Part shown: in pieces, positions 24,504 to 35,131 of the stretch
How the letters are laid out: each line of letters opens with the position of its first letter
Position numbering within the stretch: position 1 is the stretch's first letter
Assembly: GCA_010672825.2 (NCBI GenBank)
Contig: JAAHFU020000002.1
Location: 1,562,001-1,626,000, forward strand
Direction of reading: 5' to 3'
DNA: 64,000 nt
Origin: Leptolyngbya sp. SIO1E4
GTDB lineage: Bacteria; Cyanobacteriota; Cyanobacteriia; Phormidesmidales; Phormidesmidaceae
The notes under the pieces: generated by a model
Seen by the model: the letters and a program-made list of their open reading frames with translations, nothing else
What the model was told of the DNA's origin: nothing
Databases searched by the model: none
Program-made: the position numbers and the translations under genes

Positions 24504-24914
24504 ATGAGCGATATTTTTAAGCTGGCGGTCAATGGCACGCTTATGCGGGGGCTTGCCTTAAACCCGAATTTACTCAACGTTGGGGCCACTTTCGATCGCG
24601 ATGCCCGCACTGAAGCTGCCTACCGTTTTTGGAGCATCAATGATGAATACCCCGCCATGATTCGGGTGGCAGAGGGCGGTGTTGCGATCGCAGTAGAAAT
24701 CTGGAACGTTCCAGCTGCGGGGCTGGGGGTAATTTTGAGTCAGGAACCGCCAGGCTTGGCCATTGGCAAGGTTAAGTTAGCCGATGGCGAGGTTGTCCTG
24801 GGCGTTATTGGAGAACCGCTCACGGTAAAAGACCAACGGGAAATTACTCAGCTGGGTGACTGGCGCCTGTACCAGGCATCGAGGCGGGAGTACTCAACCA
24901 ACCGCGATACTTAG
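24504..24914 (+). CDS. Protein related to the allophanate hydrolase C-terminal domain
   Basis: The sequence LAVNGTLMRGLALNPNLLNVGATF, TEAAYRFWSINDEYPAMIRVAEGG, AIAVEIWNVPAAGLGVILSQEPPGL and GEVVLGVIGEP follows the C-terminal domain of AtzF-type allophanate hydrolase, a gamma-glutamylcyclotransferase-like fold. Here it stands alone at 136 residues without the amidase half. In AtzF this domain decarboxylates the product of the amidase half. Three bases separate it from the permease gene, so the two are surely co-transcribed. I infer a role in using an imported amide, urea-like or heterocyclic nitrogen compound. Confidence 0.8.
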   Translation: MSDIFKLAVNGTLMRGLALNPNLLNVGATFDRDARTEAAYRFWSINDEYPAMIRVAEGGVAIAVEIWNVPAAGLGVILSQEPPGLAIGKVKLADGEVVLGVIGEPLTVKDQREITQLGDWRLYQASRREYSTNRDT

Positions 24915-26252: not shown

Positions 26253-26570
26253 ATGAGTACATTACTAAAGCTTTCCGAAACCTCTGTTGTTAAAGCAGCA
26301 CCAGACCAAGTCTGTTCTGACCTGAATGGAGAGGCTGTCATCCTGAATCTGAAATCCGGAGTCTATTACGGACTCAATGAAACTGGGGCGTTAATCTGGC
26401 AGTTGATTCAAACCCCTCAAACAGTTGAATCCTTACGGACTGCTCTGCTGGGTGAATATGACGTTGAGCCAGAAGTCTGCGATCGCGATCTTAAGTCACT
26501 GCTGCAAGCATTCGGAGAACAGAACTTGATTGAGGTAACGGATGCAGCGAATACTCAAATTGCTGACTAA
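26253..26570 (+). CDS. Lasso peptide leader-binding protein B1 (PqqD-like RRE)
   Basis: This 105-residue PqqD-like protein would bind the leader of the lasso precursor and present it to the B2 protease. The fold is marked by a three-strand N-terminal sheet (DLNGEAVILNLKSGVYYGLNETGALIWQLIQ) and a helical second half with VCDRDLKSLLQAFGEQNLIEV. Length and pattern match RRE (B1) proteins of split-B lasso clusters. It overlaps the B2 gene by 29 bp, which supports translational coupling. It is the first gene of the cluster. Confidence 0.88.
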   Translation: MSTLLKLSETSVVKAAPDQVCSDLNGEAVILNLKSGVYYGLNETGALIWQLIQTPQTVESLRTALLGEYDVEPEVCDRDLKSLLQAFGEQNLIEVTDAANTQIAD

Positions 26571-27051
26571 GTTCAGGCGCTTACAGAGACGCGATCTCCT
26601 GTTGTTAATAACTGCCTTTCTATTGCTTGGAACAGTTCGGCTAGGGTTGTGGCTAATGCCATTTCACGCCTTATTTAAGCTGCTCATGGGCGTTGACCCC
26701 TCTGTATTTGCAAACAAGGCTTCTAGCAGAACAACAGAGGGGGAAGCTTTAGACGCTTGCCATCAGAGTGTTACCCAATCTCGTAGGGTAGCCAAGATCG
26801 TTTGGTCGGTGAATGTTGCTAGCCGGTACATGCCTGGGAAGGTCAAATGCCTGGCTCGGGCCCTAGCGACTCAAGTGTTGATGAACTGGCATCAATGTGT
26901 GTCTGAATTGCGGATTGGTGTCGATAAAACCCCAGAAGGCGGGGTCAGGGCGCATGCGTGGATTGAGTATCAAGGGCGTGTCATTATTGGCAACCTCAAC
27001 GATCTTTCTCAGTTCAAACCATTGTTTGCCTATCGAGGGATAGAACCATGA
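26542..27051 (+). CDS. Lasso peptide leader protease B2 (transglutaminase-like)
   Basis: This cysteine protease cuts the leader from the precursor before the ring is closed. The catalytic triad is visible: Cys103 in KCLARALA, His138 in AHAWIEY, and Asp154 in GNLNDLSQF. A hydrophobic segment at about residues 18-38 could anchor it in the membrane. At 169 residues it has the usual size for a B2 protein. It overlaps the next gene by 4 bp (ATGA). The partner B1 gene precedes it. Confidence 0.93.
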   Translation: MQRILKLLTKFRRLQRRDLLLLITAFLLLGTVRLGLWLMPFHALFKLLMGVDPSVFANKASSRTTEGEALDACHQSVTQSRRVAKIVWSVNVASRYMPGKVKCLARALATQVLMNWHQCVSELRIGVDKTPEGGVRAHAWIEYQGRVIIGNLNDLSQFKPLFAYRGIEP

Positions 27052-29063
27052 GTGGTCTGGTCGGTATTGTCTCCCTGAATCACCATGCTGCTCGCTCTAC
27101 TGATGTGGCCACCATGCTAGACACCCTGGCCCATAGAGGGCCGAATGGCGTCAATAGTTGGGTTCAAGGCCGCGCAGGGCTGGGTCATCGGATGCTATGG
27201 ACAACGCCCGAATCTTTGCTAGAAGTTCTCCCGTTGGTGGATCACGCTGGCGAGTTAGTGTTGACGGCAGATGCCCGCATTGATAATCGTGAGGCCCTCT
27301 TTGAAGAACTTGAGTTTGGCGATCGCCCGCTTGAGAAAATTCCCGATAGCGACTTCATTTTGGCTGCCTATCAAAAATGGGGAACAGCCTGCCCAGAGCA
27401 TCTTTTAGGTGCCTTTGCCTTTGCTATTTGGGATGCTTCAAAACACTCCCTTTTTTGTGCTAGAGATCATCTCGGCGTTAAGCCTTTTTACTATTATCAC
27501 CAGCCTGATCAAGCGTTTGTATTTGCCTCTGAAATCAAGGCAATCTTAGCCCTGCCCCAGGTGCCACGCCATCTGAATGAGGGCAAACTGGGCGAGTATT
27601 TAGCCCTGATGATGCATGATCGAACCCTCACCAGCTATTGTGATGTTTTACGTTTGCCACCAGCACACAGTCTTTTAGTCGTTCCTTCAGGATTAAAACT
27701 GTGGTCTTATTGGTCTCTGGACCCTGATTATGAGCTGAAATTGGACTCCGACGAAGCCTATGCTGAAGCCTTTCGCGAGCTATTTACCGAAGCCGTGCGG
27801 TGTCGCTTGCGCAGTGCTTTCCCCTTGGGCTCTCACTTGAGCGGGGGGTTAGATTCCTCTTCTGTGACCTGTGTGGCGCGCCAGCTAATGGCGAACATCC
27901 CAGATACCTATCTCCACACCTTTTCCAACATTTTTGATGAGGTTGCTGAGTGTGATGAACGCCCTTATATTAATACCGTTTTAGATCAGGGGGGGCTGAT
28001 TCCCCACTATGTTCACGCCGATCAGTTTGGGCCGTTGTCTGATACTGCCGAGATTTGGCAATACGAAGATGAGGGGTTATTGGGGCCTAGTCATTCATAT
28101 CCCTGGCATCTCAATCGAGCCACGCAACAAGCAGGCGTGCGAATTGTCTTAGATGGTTTAGATGGCGATACTACGGTTTCCCATGGGTTTTTCAGACTCA
28201 CAGAGTTGGCTCGTCAGAGAGATTGGCTGACCTTCTGTAGAGAGGCCGATCGCCTGGCCAAAAATTTTAACTGTCCGCCGCAGCTTGTGCTTAGACGCTA
28301 TGGCTATCCCATTTTGAGAGAATGGGGAAGAACGTTGAAATGGGCTTCATTGGCCCAGGCAATTCGGGTAATTTATCAGCAGTTTGGCATATCCCGTAAA
28401 CGGATGGTGATCGAGTTTGGTCTCAAACCTTTGATATCACCATTAACTCGCCTCTTTCGCCCTAATACTGCTCAAGCGACACTTGGAAAAGTGGCCTATC
28501 CGAGCTTAGTGAAACAGTCATTTGCAAAGAGAATTAATTTAGATTGTCGTGTCCAAACGGGCAACCAAATCGCTTCAGCGTCGTCTACCGTTAGAGAGGA
28601 TCATTGGCAATCTTTAACCCATGGCATTCTTCCATTTGTATTAGAACAACTAGATCGCTGTGCTGCGGCATTCTCCCTTGAAATGCGTCATCCCTTTATG
28701 GATAAGCGCCTAATTGAGTTTTGTTTAGCGCTACCTGCTGAGCAGAAACTCAATCAAGGATGGAGCCGAATGATTCTTCGCCGAGGGTTGGCAGGGATTT
28801 TGCCAGAAGCCGTGCAATGGCGAGGGGGAAAAGCTGATATGACCACTAATTTTTTACACGGTCTATTGGTTCGCGATCGCCAAAAATTGGATGACGTTAT
28901 GCTCCATCATTTAGAACTTCTTGAGCCCTACGTCAATCTGGATATTTTGAAGGCTGCGTATCGCCGGCTGACGTCTGGTCGCAAGGCCAGCAAAGACGAC
29001 AAACTAGTGGTTTGGCGAGCCGTTATTTTGGCACTGTGGCTGCAACGCCACTCAACAAATTAA
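27048..29063 (+). CDS. Lasso cyclase C (asparagine synthetase homologue)
   Basis: This ATP-dependent enzyme activates the side-chain carboxylate of an Asp or Glu in the core peptide as an acyl-adenylate and forms the isopeptide bond with the core N terminus. The N-terminal half looks like a class II glutaminase domain (MSGLVGIVSLNHH, LAHRGPNGVNSW, ARDHLGVKPFYYYH), but the nucleophilic Cys2 is Ser, so ammonia release from Gln is unlikely. The synthetase half has the ATP-binding SGGLDSSSV loop at about residue 265 and FSLEMRHPFMDKRLIEF near residue 545. Length (671 aa) is normal for lasso cyclases. Confidence 0.95.
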   Translation: MSGLVGIVSLNHHAARSTDVATMLDTLAHRGPNGVNSWVQGRAGLGHRMLWTTPESLLEVLPLVDHAGELVLTADARIDNREALFEELEFGDRPLEKIPDSDFILAAYQKWGTACPEHLLGAFAFAIWDASKHSLFCARDHLGVKPFYYYHQPDQAFVFASEIKAILALPQVPRHLNEGKLGEYLALMMHDRTLTSYCDVLRLPPAHSLLVVPSGLKLWSYWSLDPDYELKLDSDEAYAEAFRELFTEAVRCRLRSAFPLGSHLSGGLDSSSVTCVARQLMANIPDTYLHTFSNIFDEVAECDERPYINTVLDQGGLIPHYVHADQFGPLSDTAEIWQYEDEGLLGPSHSYPWHLNRATQQAGVRIVLDGLDGDTTVSHGFFRLTELARQRDWLTFCREADRLAKNFNCPPQLVLRRYGYPILREWGRTLKWASLAQAIRVIYQQFGISRKRMVIEFGLKPLISPLTRLFRPNTAQATLGKVAYPSLVKQSFAKRINLDCRVQTGNQIASASSTVREDHWQSLTHGILPFVLEQLDRCAAAFSLEMRHPFMDKRLIEFCLALPAEQKLNQGWSRMILRRGLAGILPEAVQWRGGKADMTTNFLHGLLVRDRQKLDDVMLHHLELLEPYVNLDILKAAYRRLTSGRKASKDDKLVVWRAVILALWLQRHSTN

Positions 29064-29192
29064 TTATTAAAGCTTGGCGGGTCTTCCCTCTGGCAATACA
29101 TGCAGGTTTGCAGTTGTCAGATAGGGCTGTAAGTCCAAGTTCAGGGGCGGTCTACCCTTGTGGTACCAAATTGTAAAACAGGAGATTAGACC

Positions 29193-29354
29193 ATGAAAAA
29201 AGGTTACACCTCACCTAAACTCACCGTTCACGGCAGCGTTGAGCAAATGACCAAAGTCCTTGGCCCAGATTCTGCTAGCGACGTGTTGATTTTCAATGGT
29301 GAAACCTTGACGACAGATTCACTGTCTGACGACCTCGAAATCAACATTTCCTAA
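29193..29354 (+). CDS. Lasso peptide precursor, 53 aa
   Basis: This frame is short but clear. AGGAG lies 8 nt before the ATG. The leader begins MKKGYTSPKLTVHGSVEQMT, which contains the YxxPxLxxxG motif read by B1 proteins. If Thr20 is the usual penultimate leader residue, the core starts at Val22 (VLGPDSASDVLIFNG...) and Asp30 is core residue 9, the right distance for a 9-residue macrolactam ring. A 7-residue ring from Gly24 to Asp30 is the alternative. The tail ends DLEINIS, with Ser53 as the last residue. The frame lies between the cyclase and an HPr-kinase-like gene, as in kinase-tailored lasso clusters. Confidence 0.9.
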   Translation: MKKGYTSPKLTVHGSVEQMTKVLGPDSASDVLIFNGETLTTDSLSDDLEINIS

Positions 29355-29417
29355 GTTTAGGATTTGATGCAGTTTTGAGGTTAGCTCAGCTGTAAGCTGA
29401 CTGCGATTTGCAGTTTC

Positions 29418-29486
29418 AATAGGGTGTTACCCAGATATTGGTAACCCGTTATCACCTCCCAACTGGTATAACACCCTATTTCTTCC
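29418..29486 (+). terminator. Hairpin after the lasso precursor (attenuator or terminator)
   Basis: AATAGGGTGTTACCCAG (29418-29434) pairs with CTGGTATAACACCCTATT (29463-29480), with one small bulge, and is followed by TCTT. It could lower read-through into the downstream genes so that the precursor is made in excess. Confidence 0.65.
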
Positions 29487-29519
29487 CTAACTCATTATTC
29501 TTACCGCAACCTGCAAATA

Positions 29520-30434
29520 ATGAATGTCTATACTGCTTACAATCTCTGCATTCACTCAGAGATTCCTTTGCTAGAGACAATGGCCTCCTCAGGCGTGGCT
29601 GATGTGACGGTGTGCTTGGGCAAGCTCGATGACATCTCACGAACTTCGCTCGATTGGGGTCATCGTTTTTTAGGCTACATGTCAGAAACTGGCAGTTTGC
29701 TGATCAAAGACGGGAAAGAAATCATCCTTGACCCGGTGCCCGGTGCCACAGATCAAATGTTGCGCTCAACCGTGCTGGGGCCAGCCATGTCAGTTATTTT
29801 GCGTCAGCGGGGGCTGTTAGTTATCCATGCTAGCGCAGCCGTGATCAACAACCAGGCAAGCGCATTCATGGGGGGGTCTGGTTGGGGTAAATCAACCCTG
29901 GCAAAAGCGTTTCACCGTCAGGGTTACGATATTTTGACAGATGATGTGCTGGCCATTGATACCCAGGCAAATCCACCTTTAGCGTATCCGGCCTTTCCCC
30001 AAATGCGGCTGTGGTCTGAAGCCGCTGTCGCCCTAGGGCACCAGGCATCAGAGCTTTCCCCCTTGCATCGCAATACTTCAAAACTGGCCTACGAGTTTAA
30101 TCATGGGTTTCGACAAGTGCCCGCGCCACTGCGTCGGATTTACGTGTTGGCTAAAGGTGCACAACACGACATTGTCAAACTTGATTCTCAGGCCGCCTTT
30201 ACTGAATTAGTGCGACACACTCGCGGAATTTCGAATCTGAAGTCTTCAGAGTTTGTCACCAGCCACTTGCGCCAGTGTGCCCACCTCATAAACACCATAG
30301 AGTTTTACCGCTTCACCCGCAAACCCTCCCTCGAAGACTTGCCTGATCTCATCGCGATGGTTGAAACCCATCTGTCAGAAACGGGTGAGGAAGCGTTCGG
30401 TGGCGAAAAAATGCCTGCCGTAGGGACGTGCTGA
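29520..30434 (+). CDS. HPr-kinase-like protein, putative lasso precursor kinase
   Basis: The 304-residue protein has a P-loop FMGGSGWGKSTLAKAF (about residues 116-131), a DILTDDVLAID acidic segment and a C-terminal LPDLI motif, as in the HprK-related kinases of lasso clusters. Kinases of this type (PadeK of paeninodin, ThcoK) phosphorylate the C-terminal Ser of the lasso precursor. The precursor encoded 166 bp upstream ends in Ser, so the fit is direct. No full HprK N-terminal domain is present. Function by family and context: tailoring of the lasso tail. Confidence 0.85.
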   Translation: MNVYTAYNLCIHSEIPLLETMASSGVADVTVCLGKLDDISRTSLDWGHRFLGYMSETGSLLIKDGKEIILDPVPGATDQMLRSTVLGPAMSVILRQRGLLVIHASAAVINNQASAFMGGSGWGKSTLAKAFHRQGYDILTDDVLAIDTQANPPLAYPAFPQMRLWSEAAVALGHQASELSPLHRNTSKLAYEFNHGFRQVPAPLRRIYVLAKGAQHDIVKLDSQAAFTELVRHTRGISNLKSSEFVTSHLRQCAHLINTIEFYRFTRKPSLEDLPDLIAMVETHLSETGEEAFGGEKMPAVGTC

Positions 30435-30480
30435 TGCACTGTCCGTTTCCCCTGCTGCTCGCTGTTATTCACTGAGACTT

Positions 30481-32367
30481 TTGAACGTGCGTGTAATCTT
30501 TTCAGCCCCGCTGCGTCGTGCAAACACCATTGCCTCGCGTCTGCTCAAAACCTTCCGCCTAGTATGGTCGGCCTCTGGTTACTGGACGCTGGCCTGGATG
30601 CTGCTGTTAGTTGTTCAAGGGCTCCTGCCAGCGGCGAGCGTGGTTTTAACCCGGCAACTCGTCGACAGCCTGGTCATGGTGGGAGGGACAGGCATCGATT
30701 GGGAAACGGTTCAGACAATCTTGTTGCCTACTGCATTGATGGCGGGTATTTTGCTGGCTACCCAAGTTTTAGGCAGCGTAAGCGAATTGATTCGAACCAT
30801 GCAGGCAGAGCTGGTTCAAGATCACATTAGTCACTTAGTTCACGATCAGTCCATCGTGATTGATTTTGGCTGCTATGAGTCTTCGGAATACAACGATCAG
30901 CTAGATCGGGCCCGATCCGGTGCGGGCAGTCGCTCTCTGGCCTTGTTAGAAAGTAGCGGCAGCTTATTACAAAACAGCATTACCCTCCTGGCGGTGGCGA
31001 CCCTCCTGCTGAGTTATGGGGTGTGGTTGCCCTTTGTGCTGTTAGGCAGTGCGCTGCCGACCTTTTACGTGGTTGTGCGGCTCAATCGGCTGCAATATCA
31101 ATGGTCGCAGCGAACCACCATTGATCGCCGCCGATTGCAATACTTCGAGCTGTTGCTGACGCACGCTGTTGTTGCTGCTGAGCTGCGGTTATTTAACTTT
31201 GGCCCTCACTTTCGAGAAAGCTTTCAAACCTTACGCCGCCGTCTGCGCACAGAGCAGTTTAAGCTGATTCGCGATCAAAGTATTAGCCGATTTTGTGCAG
31301 GGTTGATTGCTCTGGTGTTGGCGGGGGGCGTTTTGTCTTGGATGGGGCGCCAGGTACTGGCAGGAACCGTGACCCTGGGGGATTTGGCCTTGTTTTATCA
31401 GGCCTTTACCCGAGGTCAGAATGTGGTCAAATCAGCCTTAAGCAGCCTCGGCCAAATTTATAAAAACAGTCTGTTTATCAGCAACCTCTTTCAGTTTTTA
31501 AGCATCAAGCCGCAAATCGCAGACCCGCCACATCCTTTGCCAATTCCCAAGACGTTGCACCAGGGGATTCGGTTTAATCAGGTTACCTTTCGCTACCCGG
31601 GTAGCTCGGAGGCCGTGCTGAAAGACTTTAACCTCACCATTCCGGCGGGTAACATTGTGGCCATCGTGGGGGATAATGGCGCGGGCAAAAGCACGCTGCT
31701 GAAGCTATTGTGCCGGTTCTACGATCCGGAAACAGGCAGTATTGAGCTAGATGGCACGGATATTCGCCGGTTTCCGTTGCAGCCCCTGCGACGGCTGATT
31801 ACGGTTTTGTTTCAGTCTCCCATGACCTATCAGCTGCCAGCGAATGAAAATATTGCCCTCGGAGACCTGACTGCGATAGATCAGCAGGAGCGGATTCAGG
31901 CGGCGGCAGCGGATGCAGGCATCCACGATAAGCTGACGCGTTTGCCGCAGCAGTATGACACGCTGCTGGGCAAATGGTTTCCTGGGGGCACCGATCTCAG
32001 CGGTGGAGAGTGGCAGCGCATTTCGTTGGCCCGGGCTTTCTTTCGTAAAGCCCCCATCATTGTTCTGGATGAACCCACCAGTGCGATGGACCCCTGGGCT
32101 GAGGCCGATTGGCTCGATCGCTTTCGACGCATGGCCAGTGGGCGGACGGCCATTGTGATTACCCATCGGTTCACGCTGGCGATGCGGGCTGATCAAATTC
32201 ACGTGATGCGGGCAGGCAGCATTGTCGAGTCGGGTACCCATGCCCAACTGTTGGAACAAGACGGGCTCTATGCAGAATCCTGGCGATCGCAAATGCAGGC
32301 ACCTTCAATTTCTGCCGGTGAAAGTGAAGAGGAACGGCCTAAAAAGTTAAGCCACCTTTCGACGTAA
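30481..32367 (+). CDS. ABC exporter of the lasso peptide (half transporter)
   Basis: This 628-residue protein has an N-terminal transmembrane domain (about residues 35-310, six helices) and a C-terminal ATPase: Walker A GDNGAGKST at about residue 400, signature LSGGEWQRISLARAFF, Walker B IIVLDEPTSAMD, and switch His in VITHRF. It would export the mature peptide and confer self-immunity. TTG at 30481 is the start in this frame. It follows the kinase gene after 46 bp. Two tandem copies of the 96-bp repeat lie just after it. Confidence 0.9.
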   Translation: MNVRVIFSAPLRRANTIASRLLKTFRLVWSASGYWTLAWMLLLVVQGLLPAASVVLTRQLVDSLVMVGGTGIDWETVQTILLPTALMAGILLATQVLGSVSELIRTMQAELVQDHISHLVHDQSIVIDFGCYESSEYNDQLDRARSGAGSRSLALLESSGSLLQNSITLLAVATLLLSYGVWLPFVLLGSALPTFYVVVRLNRLQYQWSQRTTIDRRRLQYFELLLTHAVVAAELRLFNFGPHFRESFQTLRRRLRTEQFKLIRDQSISRFCAGLIALVLAGGVLSWMGRQVLAGTVTLGDLALFYQAFTRGQNVVKSALSSLGQIYKNSLFISNLFQFLSIKPQIADPPHPLPIPKTLHQGIRFNQVTFRYPGSSEAVLKDFNLTIPAGNIVAIVGDNGAGKSTLLKLLCRFYDPETGSIELDGTDIRRFPLQPLRRLITVLFQSPMTYQLPANENIALGDLTAIDQQERIQAAAADAGIHDKLTRLPQQYDTLLGKWFPGGTDLSGGEWQRISLARAFFRKAPIIVLDEPTSAMDPWAEADWLDRFRRMASGRTAIVITHRFTLAMRADQIHVMRAGSIVESGTHAQLLEQDGLYAESWRSQMQAPSISAGESEEERPKKLSHLST

Positions 32368-32374
32368 TGGATTC

Positions 32375-32462
32375 TATAGTCTTGTGCAGTTGAGTCCAGG
32401 ATATCTGGGTCAAGATCGGGTCTAGGGTATCGGGTCTAGGGTGTATTTTCTAATGGCTTCTA
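32375..32462 (+). repeat. 96-bp G-rich repeat, copy 7 (3' end overlapped by copy 8)
   Basis: It begins TATAGTCTTGTGCAGTTGAG, carries the G-rich core and GTGTATTTTC, and runs into the next copy at about 32463. Confidence 0.8.
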
Positions 32463-32558
32463 TATCGCTTTGTGCAGTTGAGTCCAGGACATCTGGGTCA
32501 AAACTGGGTCTAGGGGTTGGGGTCTAGGGTGTACTTTATCCCCATGCAAACCGTTATA
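32463..32558 (+). repeat. 96-bp G-rich repeat, copy 8
   Basis: A full 96-bp copy from TATCGCTTTG to CCGTTATA, in tandem with copy 7. Both lie in the lasso cluster between the exporter and the nucleotidyltransferase gene. Confidence 0.85.
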
Positions 32559-32611
32559 CAAAATGGCTGAGTCACTCTGACTCGCCTTATTAATCAAAAC
32601 TCATTCATCCT

Positions 32612-33994
32612 ATGAAAACACTCTCTGACCCGACGCGATTACCTGCCCCCGTTCATCAAGCGTCGGGGGCGGAAGTGGAACTGGTCATAGACTGTGCTCG
32701 AACTCATCTTGAGCCAGAAAGGTGCGATCGCATCCGCCATCTTTTAAGCCTGGATTTAGATTGGAAATTTGTTATTGTTTTAGCCACGCAACATCGGGTA
32801 TTGCCTCTGGTTTTTCATGCTCTCAAACAGATCGACTCCAATCACGTTCCCCCTGAGGTCTTTACCCATCTCCAAACTTTTTTTGGCCGCCACATCTTCC
32901 GAAATTTAAATCAGTTAGCCGAAATTACTAGACTGATTAACTTACTCAAACAACATCAGATTCCAGCAATTCCCTTTAAAGGCCCAACTTTAACGTTAAA
33001 TATCTATGGAGATATTGCGCTGCGACAGTTTGATGATCTCGACATTTTAGTGGCGCCTGCTGATTTTTTAAATGCCAGACAGGTCTTGATGAAACAGGGG
33101 GGATATCAGCGTCCCAAACCTTCCAACTTTTTGTCCCTCGAACAAGAGCATGCTCACTTAAGGTCTGTTTGTGAATGCTCTTTAGTGCATCGCACTCAGA
33201 AAACCGTTGTTGATCTGCATCAGCAGCTCACCGGCGGCACCTTTATTGCCTATCCGTTTGAGTTTTCAGCGCTGTGGCAGCGGCTTACCCCGGTGTCTGC
33301 GCCCCATCAGCTATTCACTCTCTGCCCAGAAGACTTGCTGCTCTATCTCTGCGTTCATGGCACCAAGAGCCTCTGGAAGCGTTTGGTGTGGATTTGTGAT
33401 GTGGCCGCATTAATCCAACAAACCCCTGCCCTTGATTGGGAGAGCCTGCTGCAAAAAGCGCAAACCGCCAAAATTGAGCGCATGTTGCTGCTGGGGCTAC
33501 ACCTGGCAGAACAGGTGTTAGGAAACACGCTGCCTGCCCTGATCACACAAAGAATTGCCGCAGATGCAACCGTGCGCGCCCTCTCTGAGCAGGTCTGTCA
33601 GCGACTTTTAGCAGGCGAATATGGGTTGAGTTCCCACTTCGACCTGGAGATGATGAAATTTCAGTTTCGCGCCATTGCAGACCCCAAGGCACAAGTGCGA
33701 TATTGCTTGAAATGTTTTTACCGACACGGGTTAACGCCAATACGGCGGCTATTTCAACCCACTGAAAAAGAGTGGCTGTTTGTGCAGCTGCCGCGTTCTC
33801 TGCATTTTTTGTACTACCTGATTCGCCCTGTTCGCCTGTTGGGGCGGGAAGTCACGAATCTGTGGCAGCATCTTTTAAGTCGTGAGATTGACACGGCTTC
33901 CGGAACACAAAGCAGAAGGCAGAAGACAAAAGACAAAAGGCAGAAGGCAGAAGGCCAAAGGATGAATGAAACGCTTGATGAGAGAGCGGGTTGA
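32612..33994 (+). CDS. Nucleotidyltransferase family protein of the lasso cluster
   Basis: The 460-residue protein has the NTP_transf_5-type core IPAIPFKGPTLTLNIYGDIALRQFDDLDILV at about residues 117-147 (the DxD pair is DDLD), then a His-rich SLVHRTQKTVVDLHQQLTGG. This family is frequent beside lasso genes, and in the pseudomycoidin cluster such a protein, with a kinase, is reported (from memory) to modify the C-terminal phosphoserine further. The last ~25 residues (RRQKTKDKRQKAEGQR) come from a heptamer repeat that has invaded the coding end. It lies 245 bp beyond the exporter, so membership in the operon is likely but not proved. Confidence 0.8.
   Translation: MKTLSDPTRLPAPVHQASGAEVELVIDCARTHLEPERCDRIRHLLSLDLDWKFVIVLATQHRVLPLVFHALKQIDSNHVPPEVFTHLQTFFGRHIFRNLNQLAEITRLINLLKQHQIPAIPFKGPTLTLNIYGDIALRQFDDLDILVAPADFLNARQVLMKQGGYQRPKPSNFLSLEQEHAHLRSVCECSLVHRTQKTVVDLHQQLTGGTFIAYPFEFSALWQRLTPVSAPHQLFTLCPEDLLLYLCVHGTKSLWKRLVWICDVAALIQQTPALDWESLLQKAQTAKIERMLLLGLHLAEQVLGNTLPALITQRIAADATVRALSEQVCQRLLAGEYGLSSHFDLEMMKFQFRAIADPKAQVRYCLKCFYRHGLTPIRRLFQPTEKEWLFVQLPRSLHFLYYLIRPVRLLGREVTNLWQHLLSREIDTASGTQSRRQKTKDKRQKAEGQRMNETLDERAG
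33911..33959 (+). repeat. Seven-unit heptamer repeat (STRR) within the coding end
   Basis: Seven 7-bp units in a row (AGCAGAA, GGCAGAA, GACAAAA twice, GGCAGAA twice, GGCCAAA). Such heptamers are typical of cyanobacterial genomes. A related short stretch (GGCAGAAGGCAGAATGAAAC) lies at 51477-51496. Confidence 0.9.
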
Positions 33995-34105: not shown

Positions 34106-35131
34106 ATGAGCGGACTGGGTGGCTTAAATAAAACCCCAAATGGTGTTGTACTGGGCGTGGTGCAACTGCAACTGCCCACAGTCGTCACCCCCGATGACCT
34201 GGCAGCCCAAACCCAACGCATCGTGGAGATGGTCGGCAAAGCCCGCCGCAATCTGCCCACGATGGATTTGGTGATCTTCCCAGAATATTCGCTGCATGGG
34301 CTGTCGATGGAGACTAACCCAGACATCATGTGCCGTCTGGATGGACCAGAGGTTGCCGCCTTTCGCCAAGCCTGCATTGACAACCAAATCTGGGGCTGCT
34401 TCTCCATCATGGAGTTCAACCCTAAGGGCAACCCTTATAACAGCGGCCTGATCATTGATGACAAAGGGGAACTGAAGCTTTATTACCGCAAGCTTCACCC
34501 CTGGGTGCCGGTAGAACCTTGGGAACCCGGCAACATTGGCATTCCGGTTTGCGAAGGCCCCAATGGCAGCACCCTGGCCCTGATCATCTGCCATGATGGC
34601 ATGTTTCCTGAAATGGCCCGCGAATGTGCCTACAAAGGGGCGGAAATTATGATTCGCACGGCAGGCTACACCGCCCCTATCCGCCATTCCTGGCGGGTGA
34701 CTAACCAGGCCAACGCCTTTTGCAATCTGATGGTGACGGCTTCTGTGTGTATGTGTGGCAGCGACGGCACCTTCGACTCGATGGGCGAGGGCATGATTGT
34801 CAACTTTGATGGCGAGCCGCTGGTCATGGGCAGCCACCGTCCGGATGAAATTATTACCGCTGAAGTGCGCCCTGATTTAGTCCGCGAAGCCCGCAAACAC
34901 TGGAGCGTGGAGAACAATATCTATCAGTTTGGCCATCGCGGCTATGTGGCGGTGCAGGGCGGCGCCCAAGATTGCCCCTACACCTACATGAAGGATATGG
35001 TTGCAGGCAACTATCGCCTGCCCTGGGAAGATGACGTGATCCACACTGACGGCACCAGCTGCGGCTTCCCGGCCCCGACGCGGCAGTATGAGGGGGAAGA
35101 GATGCCTGTGGAGCCTGCAGAGGTGGGGTGA
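34106..35131 (+). CDS. amiF: Formamidase
   Basis: This hydrolyses formamide to formate and ammonia. The nitrilase-fold catalytic triad is present: Glu60 in VIFPEYS, Lys129 in YYRKLHPW, Cys162 in IICHDGM. The start MSGLGGLNKTPNGVVLGVVQ and the segments YNSGLIIDD, EPWEPGNIGIPVCEGPNG and ENNIYQFGHRGYVAVQGG match AmiF rather than the related AmiE. Length is 341 aa, slightly longer than H. pylori AmiF because of an acidic C-terminal tail. It stands alone. The product ammonia makes it a nitrogen-scavenging enzyme; regulation is not visible. Confidence 0.93.
   Translation: MSGLGGLNKTPNGVVLGVVQLQLPTVVTPDDLAAQTQRIVEMVGKARRNLPTMDLVIFPEYSLHGLSMETNPDIMCRLDGPEVAAFRQACIDNQIWGCFSIMEFNPKGNPYNSGLIIDDKGELKLYYRKLHPWVPVEPWEPGNIGIPVCEGPNGSTLALIICHDGMFPEMARECAYKGAEIMIRTAGYTAPIRHSWRVTNQANAFCNLMVTASVCMCGSDGTFDSMGEGMIVNFDGEPLVMGSHRPDEIITAEVRPDLVREARKHWSVENNIYQFGHRGYVAVQGGAQDCPYTYMKDMVAGNYRLPWEDDVIHTDGTSCGFPAPTRQYEGEEMPVEPAEVG

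Follow-up and report, generated by a model that had tools for sequence, protein, structure and literature searches.

Kinase-Type Lasso Peptide Clusters

The closest described systems are lasso peptide clusters that contain a kinase gene, and the site modified by the kinase is, according to the sections of the review consulted, a C-terminal Ser in both paeninodin and pseudomycoidin (PMC9266682). In the pseudomycoidin (psm) cluster of Bacillus pseudomycoides, which combines a kinase with a nucleotidyltransferase, PsmK phosphorylates this Ser and a second group follows; PsmN is needed for the addition of a hexose, and the review leaves open whether PsmN transfers the sugar itself (PMC9266682). 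This report deals with a cluster of seven genes (B1, B2, C, A, K, D and N) at positions 26253-33994 of a 64,000-nucleotide stretch of Leptolyngbya sp. SIO1E4 DNA (contig JAAHFU020000002.1, positions 1,562,001 to 1,626,000), which is called the window throughout. The seven genes probably form an intact kinase-type lasso peptide cluster of the cyanobacterial NF033528/NF033535 family, encoding the whole route proposed below. As a lasso cluster it is ordinary, and its kind is already catalogued in NCBIfam by a precursor and a cyclase model; it is moderately interesting for the group to which it belongs, an uncharacterised kinase-type variant with a conserved internal signature in the peptide tail.

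Like psm, the window contains a nucleotidyltransferase gene, with the PF14907 assignment covering the N protein of the window alone. It differs from psm in its kinase clade, which goes with an internal Gly-Ser-x-Asp (GSxD) signature, in a predicted core of 32 residues and in its cyanobacterial host. The kinases of paeninodin, ThcoA and SyanA share a His-Lys-Asp-Asp motif, and their peptides have an extremely conserved C-terminal Ser, as far as the same review describes them (PMC9266682). The window kinase retains the His, the Lys and the Asp-Asp pair, which presumably match one-to-one; a terminal Ser is present in the window precursor and in only 8 of 109 related cores.

The linear polyphosphorylated peptides (LPPs) of Bacillota offer another likeness, with a leader-binding protein (RRE), an HprK-like kinase, an NTP transferase and an MsbA-like exporter, and with phosphorylation at Ser3, as in LppA by LppK (PMC13381572, in the part consulted). 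Ser3 is likewise reported as the phosphorylation site of BsfA by the kinase BsfK. As described there, LPP loci have a signal-peptidase-like enzyme and no cyclase (PMC13381572), whereas the window has B2 and C and therefore falls outside the LPP type. Since the known sites are both the C-terminal Ser and Ser3, the position at which these kinases act can move.

The Gene Cluster

The families were identified by profile scans of the window proteins against NCBIfam and Pfam. B1 (26253-26570) is a PqqD-like leader-binding protein (PF05402, 1e-19) that falls slightly below its own NCBIfam cut-off (NF033536, 77 bits versus 80) and contains Tyr38, which has a frequency of 1.00 in an alignment of 116 B1 sequences. 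It overlaps by 29 bp with B2 (26542-27051), a transglutaminase-like leader peptidase (NF033537, 98.7 bits against a cut-off of 33; PF13471, 2.7e-23), and B2 in turn overlaps by 4 bp with C (27048-29063), an asparagine-synthetase-like macrolactam cyclase (NF033535, 979 bits against a cut-off of 525). The C loop LSGGLDSS (residues 264-271) is invariant across 12 aligned sequences, and residue 2 of the protein is not Cys; the genome has one close match to this cyclase, the remaining ones being far weaker. The gene D (30481-32367), which begins with TTG, encodes an ABC exporter with the permease fused to the ATPase (ABC_tran, 5.7e-32), for which the MsbA-type NCBIfam models and Pfam ABC_membrane all stay below their cut-offs; no peptidase family is among its Pfam matches. 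Because C, A and B2 exceed their NCBIfam cut-offs, B1 is a PqqD protein and N matches PF14907, the gene set is not due to chance.

The original prediction had described a complete cyanobacterial lasso cluster of the kinase type with these seven genes in one direction and with these two overlaps. The genes lie where it put them, all on the + strand, and the family models and catalytic residues bear the description out. It had also named the loss of B2 catalytic residues in close relatives as a sign of decay, which was not seen: Cys103 and His138 are retained in 111 of 111 aligned B2 sequences. B1, B2 and C all have their catalytic residues intact, except that the third catalytic acid of B2 is uncertain, the candidate Asp154 occurring in 80 of the 111.

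The precursor gene A (29193-29354, + strand) encodes 53 residues and is preceded by AGGAG (29180-29184), 8 bases upstream of its ATG. It had been expected to be easily missed, which is fair as regards the length of the open reading frame; for current annotation this was rejected, as NF033528 detects it with 51.5 bits (cut-off 33). This model has 35 positions and stops at residue 35, short of the region of the tail motif (residues 42-47). The leader (residues 1-21, MKKGYTSPKLTVHGSVEQMTK) contains Tyr5, Pro8 and Leu10 of a YxxPxL motif and Thr20 at position -2, and is followed by the predicted core (residues 22-53, VLGPDSASDVLIFNGETLTTDSLSDDLEINIS). In the characterised systems covered by the part of the source consulted, YxxPxL occupies -17 to -12 and position -2 is usually Thr, with Ile as a reported exception (PMC10368454). 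The Thr at -2 therefore places the cut after Lys21 and the predicted ring between core Val1 and Asp9 (precursor residues 22-30, 29256-29282). Asp9 lies within the range (core 7-9) expected for an acidic acceptor. A product other than a lasso peptide was considered and rejected, as the leader, the acceptor Asp and the cyclase all fit a lasso.

The kinase K (29520-30434, + strand) gives no family match above cut-off in NCBIfam or Pfam and, as a single sequence, no match in PDB. Its assignment as an HPr-kinase-like peptide kinase comes from conserved residues, a PDB profile and the fold. An alignment of 40 such kinases matches HPr kinase in PDB (1jb1, 5.9e-8), and the catalytic set is retained nearly throughout 129 aligned kinases (His103 in 129, Lys124 in 129, Asp141 in 125 and Asp142 in 126), so that K falls among the HprK-like kinases with His-Lys-Asp-Asp of the paeninodin and pseudomycoidin type. 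The AlphaFold2 model of K (mean pLDDT 90.8) is of the PEPCK/HprK type as judged from its fold matches, phosphoenolpyruvate (PEP) carboxykinase at 1e-9 (TM about 0.57 on the query) and HPr kinase at 4.8e-6 (TM about 0.34). PEP carboxykinase and HPr kinase form a related group of P-loop kinases.

An Internal Tail Motif and Its Kinase Branch

Related precursors were collected from 134 loci, the window included, which gave 191 candidates; 14 were dropped by the leader motif and 177 kept, and counting identical cores once left 173, six of which have no kinase within reach, including L072, whose GSxD-like core lies near a contig end. The comparison left out L090-L136 (weaker matches of the named-genome scan) and the short loci L001-L036 and L137-L170; some loci derive from the same genome, and identical precursors were merged. 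In the long cores Asp9, usually also Gly3, and a hydrophobic stretch precede a tail that contains [GD]Sx[DN] and varies at its end. Another 26 cores are short and end in Ser, matching the known C-terminal-Ser type, and 28 precursors fit neither kind.

The two kinds of core go with different kinases. A quick maximum-likelihood tree was built from 111 kinases (those shorter than 240 residues excluded), with the GSxD label assigned by the loosely spaced form [GD]Sx(1-3)[DN]. One branch with an SH-aLRT value of 100 holds 71 rows, namely 67 labelled GSxD, three with neither label and the window, and none labelled C-terminal-Ser; the tree program flags long branches outside this branch. Four positions distinguish the 67 kinases of the GSxD branch from a C-terminal-Ser set of 18: Arg235 (66/67, with Tyr in 16/18), Arg95 (64/67, with His in 17/18), Asn8 (62/67, with Gly in 15/18) and His233 (64/67 versus 2/18). 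Four off-branch GSxD rows (L230, L045, L242 and L241) and two C-terminal-Ser rows of L081 were excluded from this comparison, and the contrast is sharpened by their exclusion. The window kinase lies inside the branch and has Asn8, Arg95, His233 and Arg235. Of these residues Arg235 is the better mark, because Arg95 also occurs in kinases of cyclase-less loci (G-R-N-Y).

When the precursors are grouped by this residue, the Arg235 kinases accompany 109 distinct cores, 88 of which have the strict motif (11.3 expected by tail shuffling) and 102 the loose one (26.0 expected); seven lack even the latter. Only eight end in Ser, and 10.8 would be expected from composition. Asp is found at core position 9 in 104 of the 109. 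The kinases without Arg235 accompany 58 cores, with the strict motif in 7, the loose motif in 7 (two of these go with a kinase in which no residue is read at 235) and a terminal Ser in 23. The signature also persists among dissimilar sequences, as 53 of 64 cores less than 60% alike have the strict motif (6.8 expected), and GS.D occurs beyond position 15 in 43 of these 64, the next four-residue pattern in 11. The original prediction had overlooked both the membership of the cluster in a cyanobacterial family that is frequent and already covered by a model, and the pattern within this family, where the internal tail Ser motif is conserved and the C-terminal Ser is not.

In the Arg235 group, Cys residues after position 9 are absent from 59 of the 109 cores, paired in 49 and single in one, although a Poisson spread would predict about 40 cores with one Cys; none of the 109 has a Cys at positions 1-9, and in all 49 two-Cys cores both lie past the motif Ser. 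A tail-tail disulfide is thus likely, from these counts, in 49 of the 109 relatives, recalling the long-tailed class IV lasso peptides (pandonodin, LP2006 and felipeptins). The window core has no Cys and so lacks the two tail Cys that define class IV. If untrimmed, 102 of the 109 cores exceed 33 residues, and the longest has 58; a 2026 review gives, in the part consulted, 30 and 33 residues overall for the record-loop and record-tail examples, the latter being pandonodin (PMC13352647).

The comparison suggests that GSxD is the signature of an internal phosphorylation site in cores of 29-58 residues, some of whose tails would be closed by a disulfide. A motif Ser is favoured as the kinase site because Ser is the residue that these kinases modify.

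The Candidate Phosphorylation Sites and the Proposed Route

The candidate internal site of the window is Ser43-Leu44-Ser45 (core Ser22 and Ser24; 29319-29327, + strand), which is followed by Asp-Asp and matches the motif loosely. The tail, DSLSDDLEINIS, contains DSLSDD at this place and has Ser as its last residue (Ser53, core Ser32; 29349-29351), the position corresponding to the paeninodin site. In L037, a relative from the same family with a core of equal length, the corresponding segment is TDGSQDISLPN, and when a gap of one residue is allowed its Ser aligns by eye with window Ser45. On balance the favoured target of the window kinase is an internal Ser (core Ser24 or Ser22), and the terminal Ser32 is a rather unlikely one.

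From the gene content and the precedents we infer a route in which the order of the steps, the phosphorylated residue, the group added by N, threading, export and any biological function are all provisional; the gene set, the conserved catalytic residues, the leader motif and the acceptor Asp are read directly from the sequence. B1 would bind the YxxPxL leader of A, and K would then phosphorylate a Ser of the long tail, probably while B1 holds A, an internal Ser being likelier than Ser32. By analogy with PsmN, N would add a further group (sugar or nucleotidyl) to the phosphate. B2 would cut after Lys21, C would close the ring by linking the amino group of Val1 with the side chain of Asp9, the VLIF stretch being threaded through it, and D would export a product of about 32 residues.

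Extended to the relatives, this leads to the tentative proposal, which we hold at slightly less than even, that in a large cyanobacterial group the HprK-like kinase has shifted from the C-terminal to the internal GSxD Ser, that Arg235 (perhaps with Arg95) reads the acidic residue that follows, and that N decorates the phosphate in the middle of the tail. Two loci, L184 and L219, bear on this point, as each has two precursor kinds with their own C and K but, in the stretch examined, a single B2 and a single N for both; in L219 D is common to the two as well, and L184 has a second, partial N match. With B2 and N in common, C and K are the likeliest proteins to read the difference between the precursors, and C acts on the ring.

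Several points weigh against this reading of the cluster and of its kinase site. The window follows the pattern in its kinase, by branch and Arg235, and departs from it in its tail, which lacks the strict [GD]Sx[DN] and ends in Ser; its core also begins with Val, where Gly, Ala, Ser or Cys is usual. Four of 71 GSxD-labelled kinases fall outside the branch, Arg95 is unspecific (G-R-N-Y kinases accompany 16-17 other cores, including those of cyclase-less loci), and the second L219 kinase has Arg235 with a precursor that lacks the motif. Duplicated kinases and cyclases are also found together in loci with two GSxD precursors (L199, L202 and L216), which weakens the argument from loci with mixed precursors. 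Moreover, descent is shared by the genes for the kinase, the cyclase and leader processing, so that motif and clade may co-occur without direct recognition, and both the groups and the residue used for grouping, Arg235, were chosen after seeing the data. For these last two reasons the comparison speaks strongly for a conserved signature but does no more than suggest a kinase site.

The alternative that survives best keeps the same cluster and has K act on the C-terminal Ser53, like PadeK and PsmK, the internal motif of the relatives serving export, folding or the like. Besides the two features of the window tail just mentioned, it draws on the C-terminal site of the paeninodin-type examples (PMC9266682, as far as consulted) and on the 23 of 58 terminal Ser residues that go with kinases without Arg235. 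It is nevertheless unlikely, since the window kinase sits in the GSxD branch with the residues of that group, the Arg235 cores show no excess of terminal Ser over composition, and the near-identical precursors L071 and L201 exchange their last two residues, Asn-Ser for Lys-Pro, with DDSID unchanged.

A second alternative concerns the ring, and would start the core at the conserved Gly3 (precursor residue 24), with a cut three residues past Thr20 and a 7-residue Gly-Asp ring. Gly is found there in 94 of the 109 precursors, whereas the residue at position 1 differs among them (Ala 41, Ile 20, Val 19, Phe 10, Leu 7), and 7-residue rings are known; the distance between Tyr(-17) and the cut is, however, reported as fixed, and short cyanobacterial precursors such as L063 and L068 would be left with 6-residue rings, which makes this start quite improbable. 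It is slightly less probable still that the part of the tail past the GSxD Ser is removed as a follower, leaving a C-terminal Ser as in paeninodin. This would reconcile GSxD with the C-terminal precedents and would suit the 4 to 28 highly variable residues after the motif Ser, but no extra peptidase was recognised in the seven window genes and the scanned neighbours (the other genes of the relatives were not searched for peptidases), and the position of both Cys past the motif Ser in every two-Cys core makes the end of the tail look structured and not discarded. The weakest alternative, a decayed or silent cluster, would suit a cluster that is single-copy and accessory (a relative has unrelated DNA between the same flanking genes), but is very improbable with all frames open, a ribosome-binding site before A and the catalytic residues kept.

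Should phosphorylation indeed be internal, a simple rule would tell where these kinases act, the phosphorylated Ser would be a natural handle for attaching groups within a lasso tail, and there would be lasso peptides that exceed in length the record examples of the 2026 review (PMC13352647, part consulted). If the shift to GSxD holds for the group, many of its members, with cores of up to 58 residues, would exceed those records, and nearly half would have a disulfide loop in the tail past the phosphorylated Ser.

The Nucleotidyltransferase

N (32612-33994, + strand) is a tailoring enzyme with a nucleotidyltransferase fold (PF14907, 1.1e-63) that retains the Lys-Gly and Asp-x-Asp motifs. Among 80 aligned sequences, 3-4 of them gapped at these sites, Lys123 is found in 76, Gly124, Asp142 and Asp144 in 77 each, and His203 in 75. 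The AlphaFold2 model (pLDDT 87.4) matches MenT1 at 4e-4, followed by ANT(2'')-Ia, LnuA and FKRP at about 1e-2, weak matches that point to a nucleotidyltransferase fold. The likeness to FKRP (6kal, 6kam) hints that N, instead of being a plain nucleotidyltransferase, may transfer a phospho-polyol or a sugar. The hexose role of PsmN is the one functional precedent met for N, by analogy. On this precedent the original idea that kinase and nucleotidyltransferase together point to a tail-modified lasso peptide is reasonable, the modification being a predicted one.

Distribution and Related Loci

Across the phylum, NF033528 matched 19 of 386 genomes (10 over cut-off) and none of 14 control genomes. 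Among relatives it matched 5 of 39 (2 over cut-off), within the order 9 of 63 (4 over cut-off), and in one other family 90 of 217 (63 over cut-off). NF033535 exceeded its cut-off in 17 of the 386 genomes and in none of the 14 controls, and ordinary asparagine synthetases often matched it more weakly. A scan of named genomes gave at least 80 loci, and the first eight among the matches listed are all cyanobacterial; a plasmid collection held no such cyclase at 1e-100. These counts make the cluster one example of a widespread kind. In the first 20 loci of the relatives K is present in 20 and N in 10. One paper, in the part consulted, calls lasso peptides underexplored in cyanobacteria, and the titles and abstract openings of the open-access literature searched describe no isolated cyanobacterial lasso peptide; such clusters are frequent in some cyanobacteria and chemically little studied.

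Relatives of C, K and N are also clustered in two archaeal records, L074 (Methanobacteriaceae UBA587) and L079 (Halosimplex salinum). At L046:5767-7840 and L038:9132-10532 a single cyclase is accompanied by three to five similar precursors in tandem, which vary in their tails, and two precursor kinds with separate kinases share one locus in L184, L219, L223 and L218.

Another set of loci (L056:3282-12932, L234:7199-16635, and also L049, L233, L236 and L247) has precursors of the type YSEPEL...LTQQVGGSGGF... together with B1, B2, K, D and N; no cyclase match was found within the 20 kb examined at these six. Nearly all of their cores are without Asp or Glu at positions 7-9 (one L233 core has Asp9), and glycosyltransferases are among the L056 genes, the locus to which this Pfam scan was applied. 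By their sequences these loci look like producers of linear phospho- or glycopeptides that resemble LPPs but have B2.

Genomic Setting and Minor Features

The cluster is flanked by a lone allophanate-hydrolase C-terminal domain (24504-24914) and, on the other side, by a formamidase (34106-35131). In the relative L251 the same two genes enclose unrelated DNA, which has an open reading frame of 947 residues and matches none of the seven lasso proteins; with respect to this genome the cluster is therefore an accessory insert.

Between A and K lies a strong stem-loop (29418-29480, + strand) with a 12-bp closing stem; the region folded as 29380-29500 has a z of -4.97, and none of 200 shuffles was equally stable. 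It possibly limits read-through or protects the A message. Between D and N, at about 32377-32540, two imperfect direct copies of about 65 bases each (ttgtgcagttgagtccagga...) were found by eye. Short repeats of the cagaaggcagaagac type occupy the 3' end of N, at about 33911-33965, and the final 30 or so codons of N may be repeat-derived.

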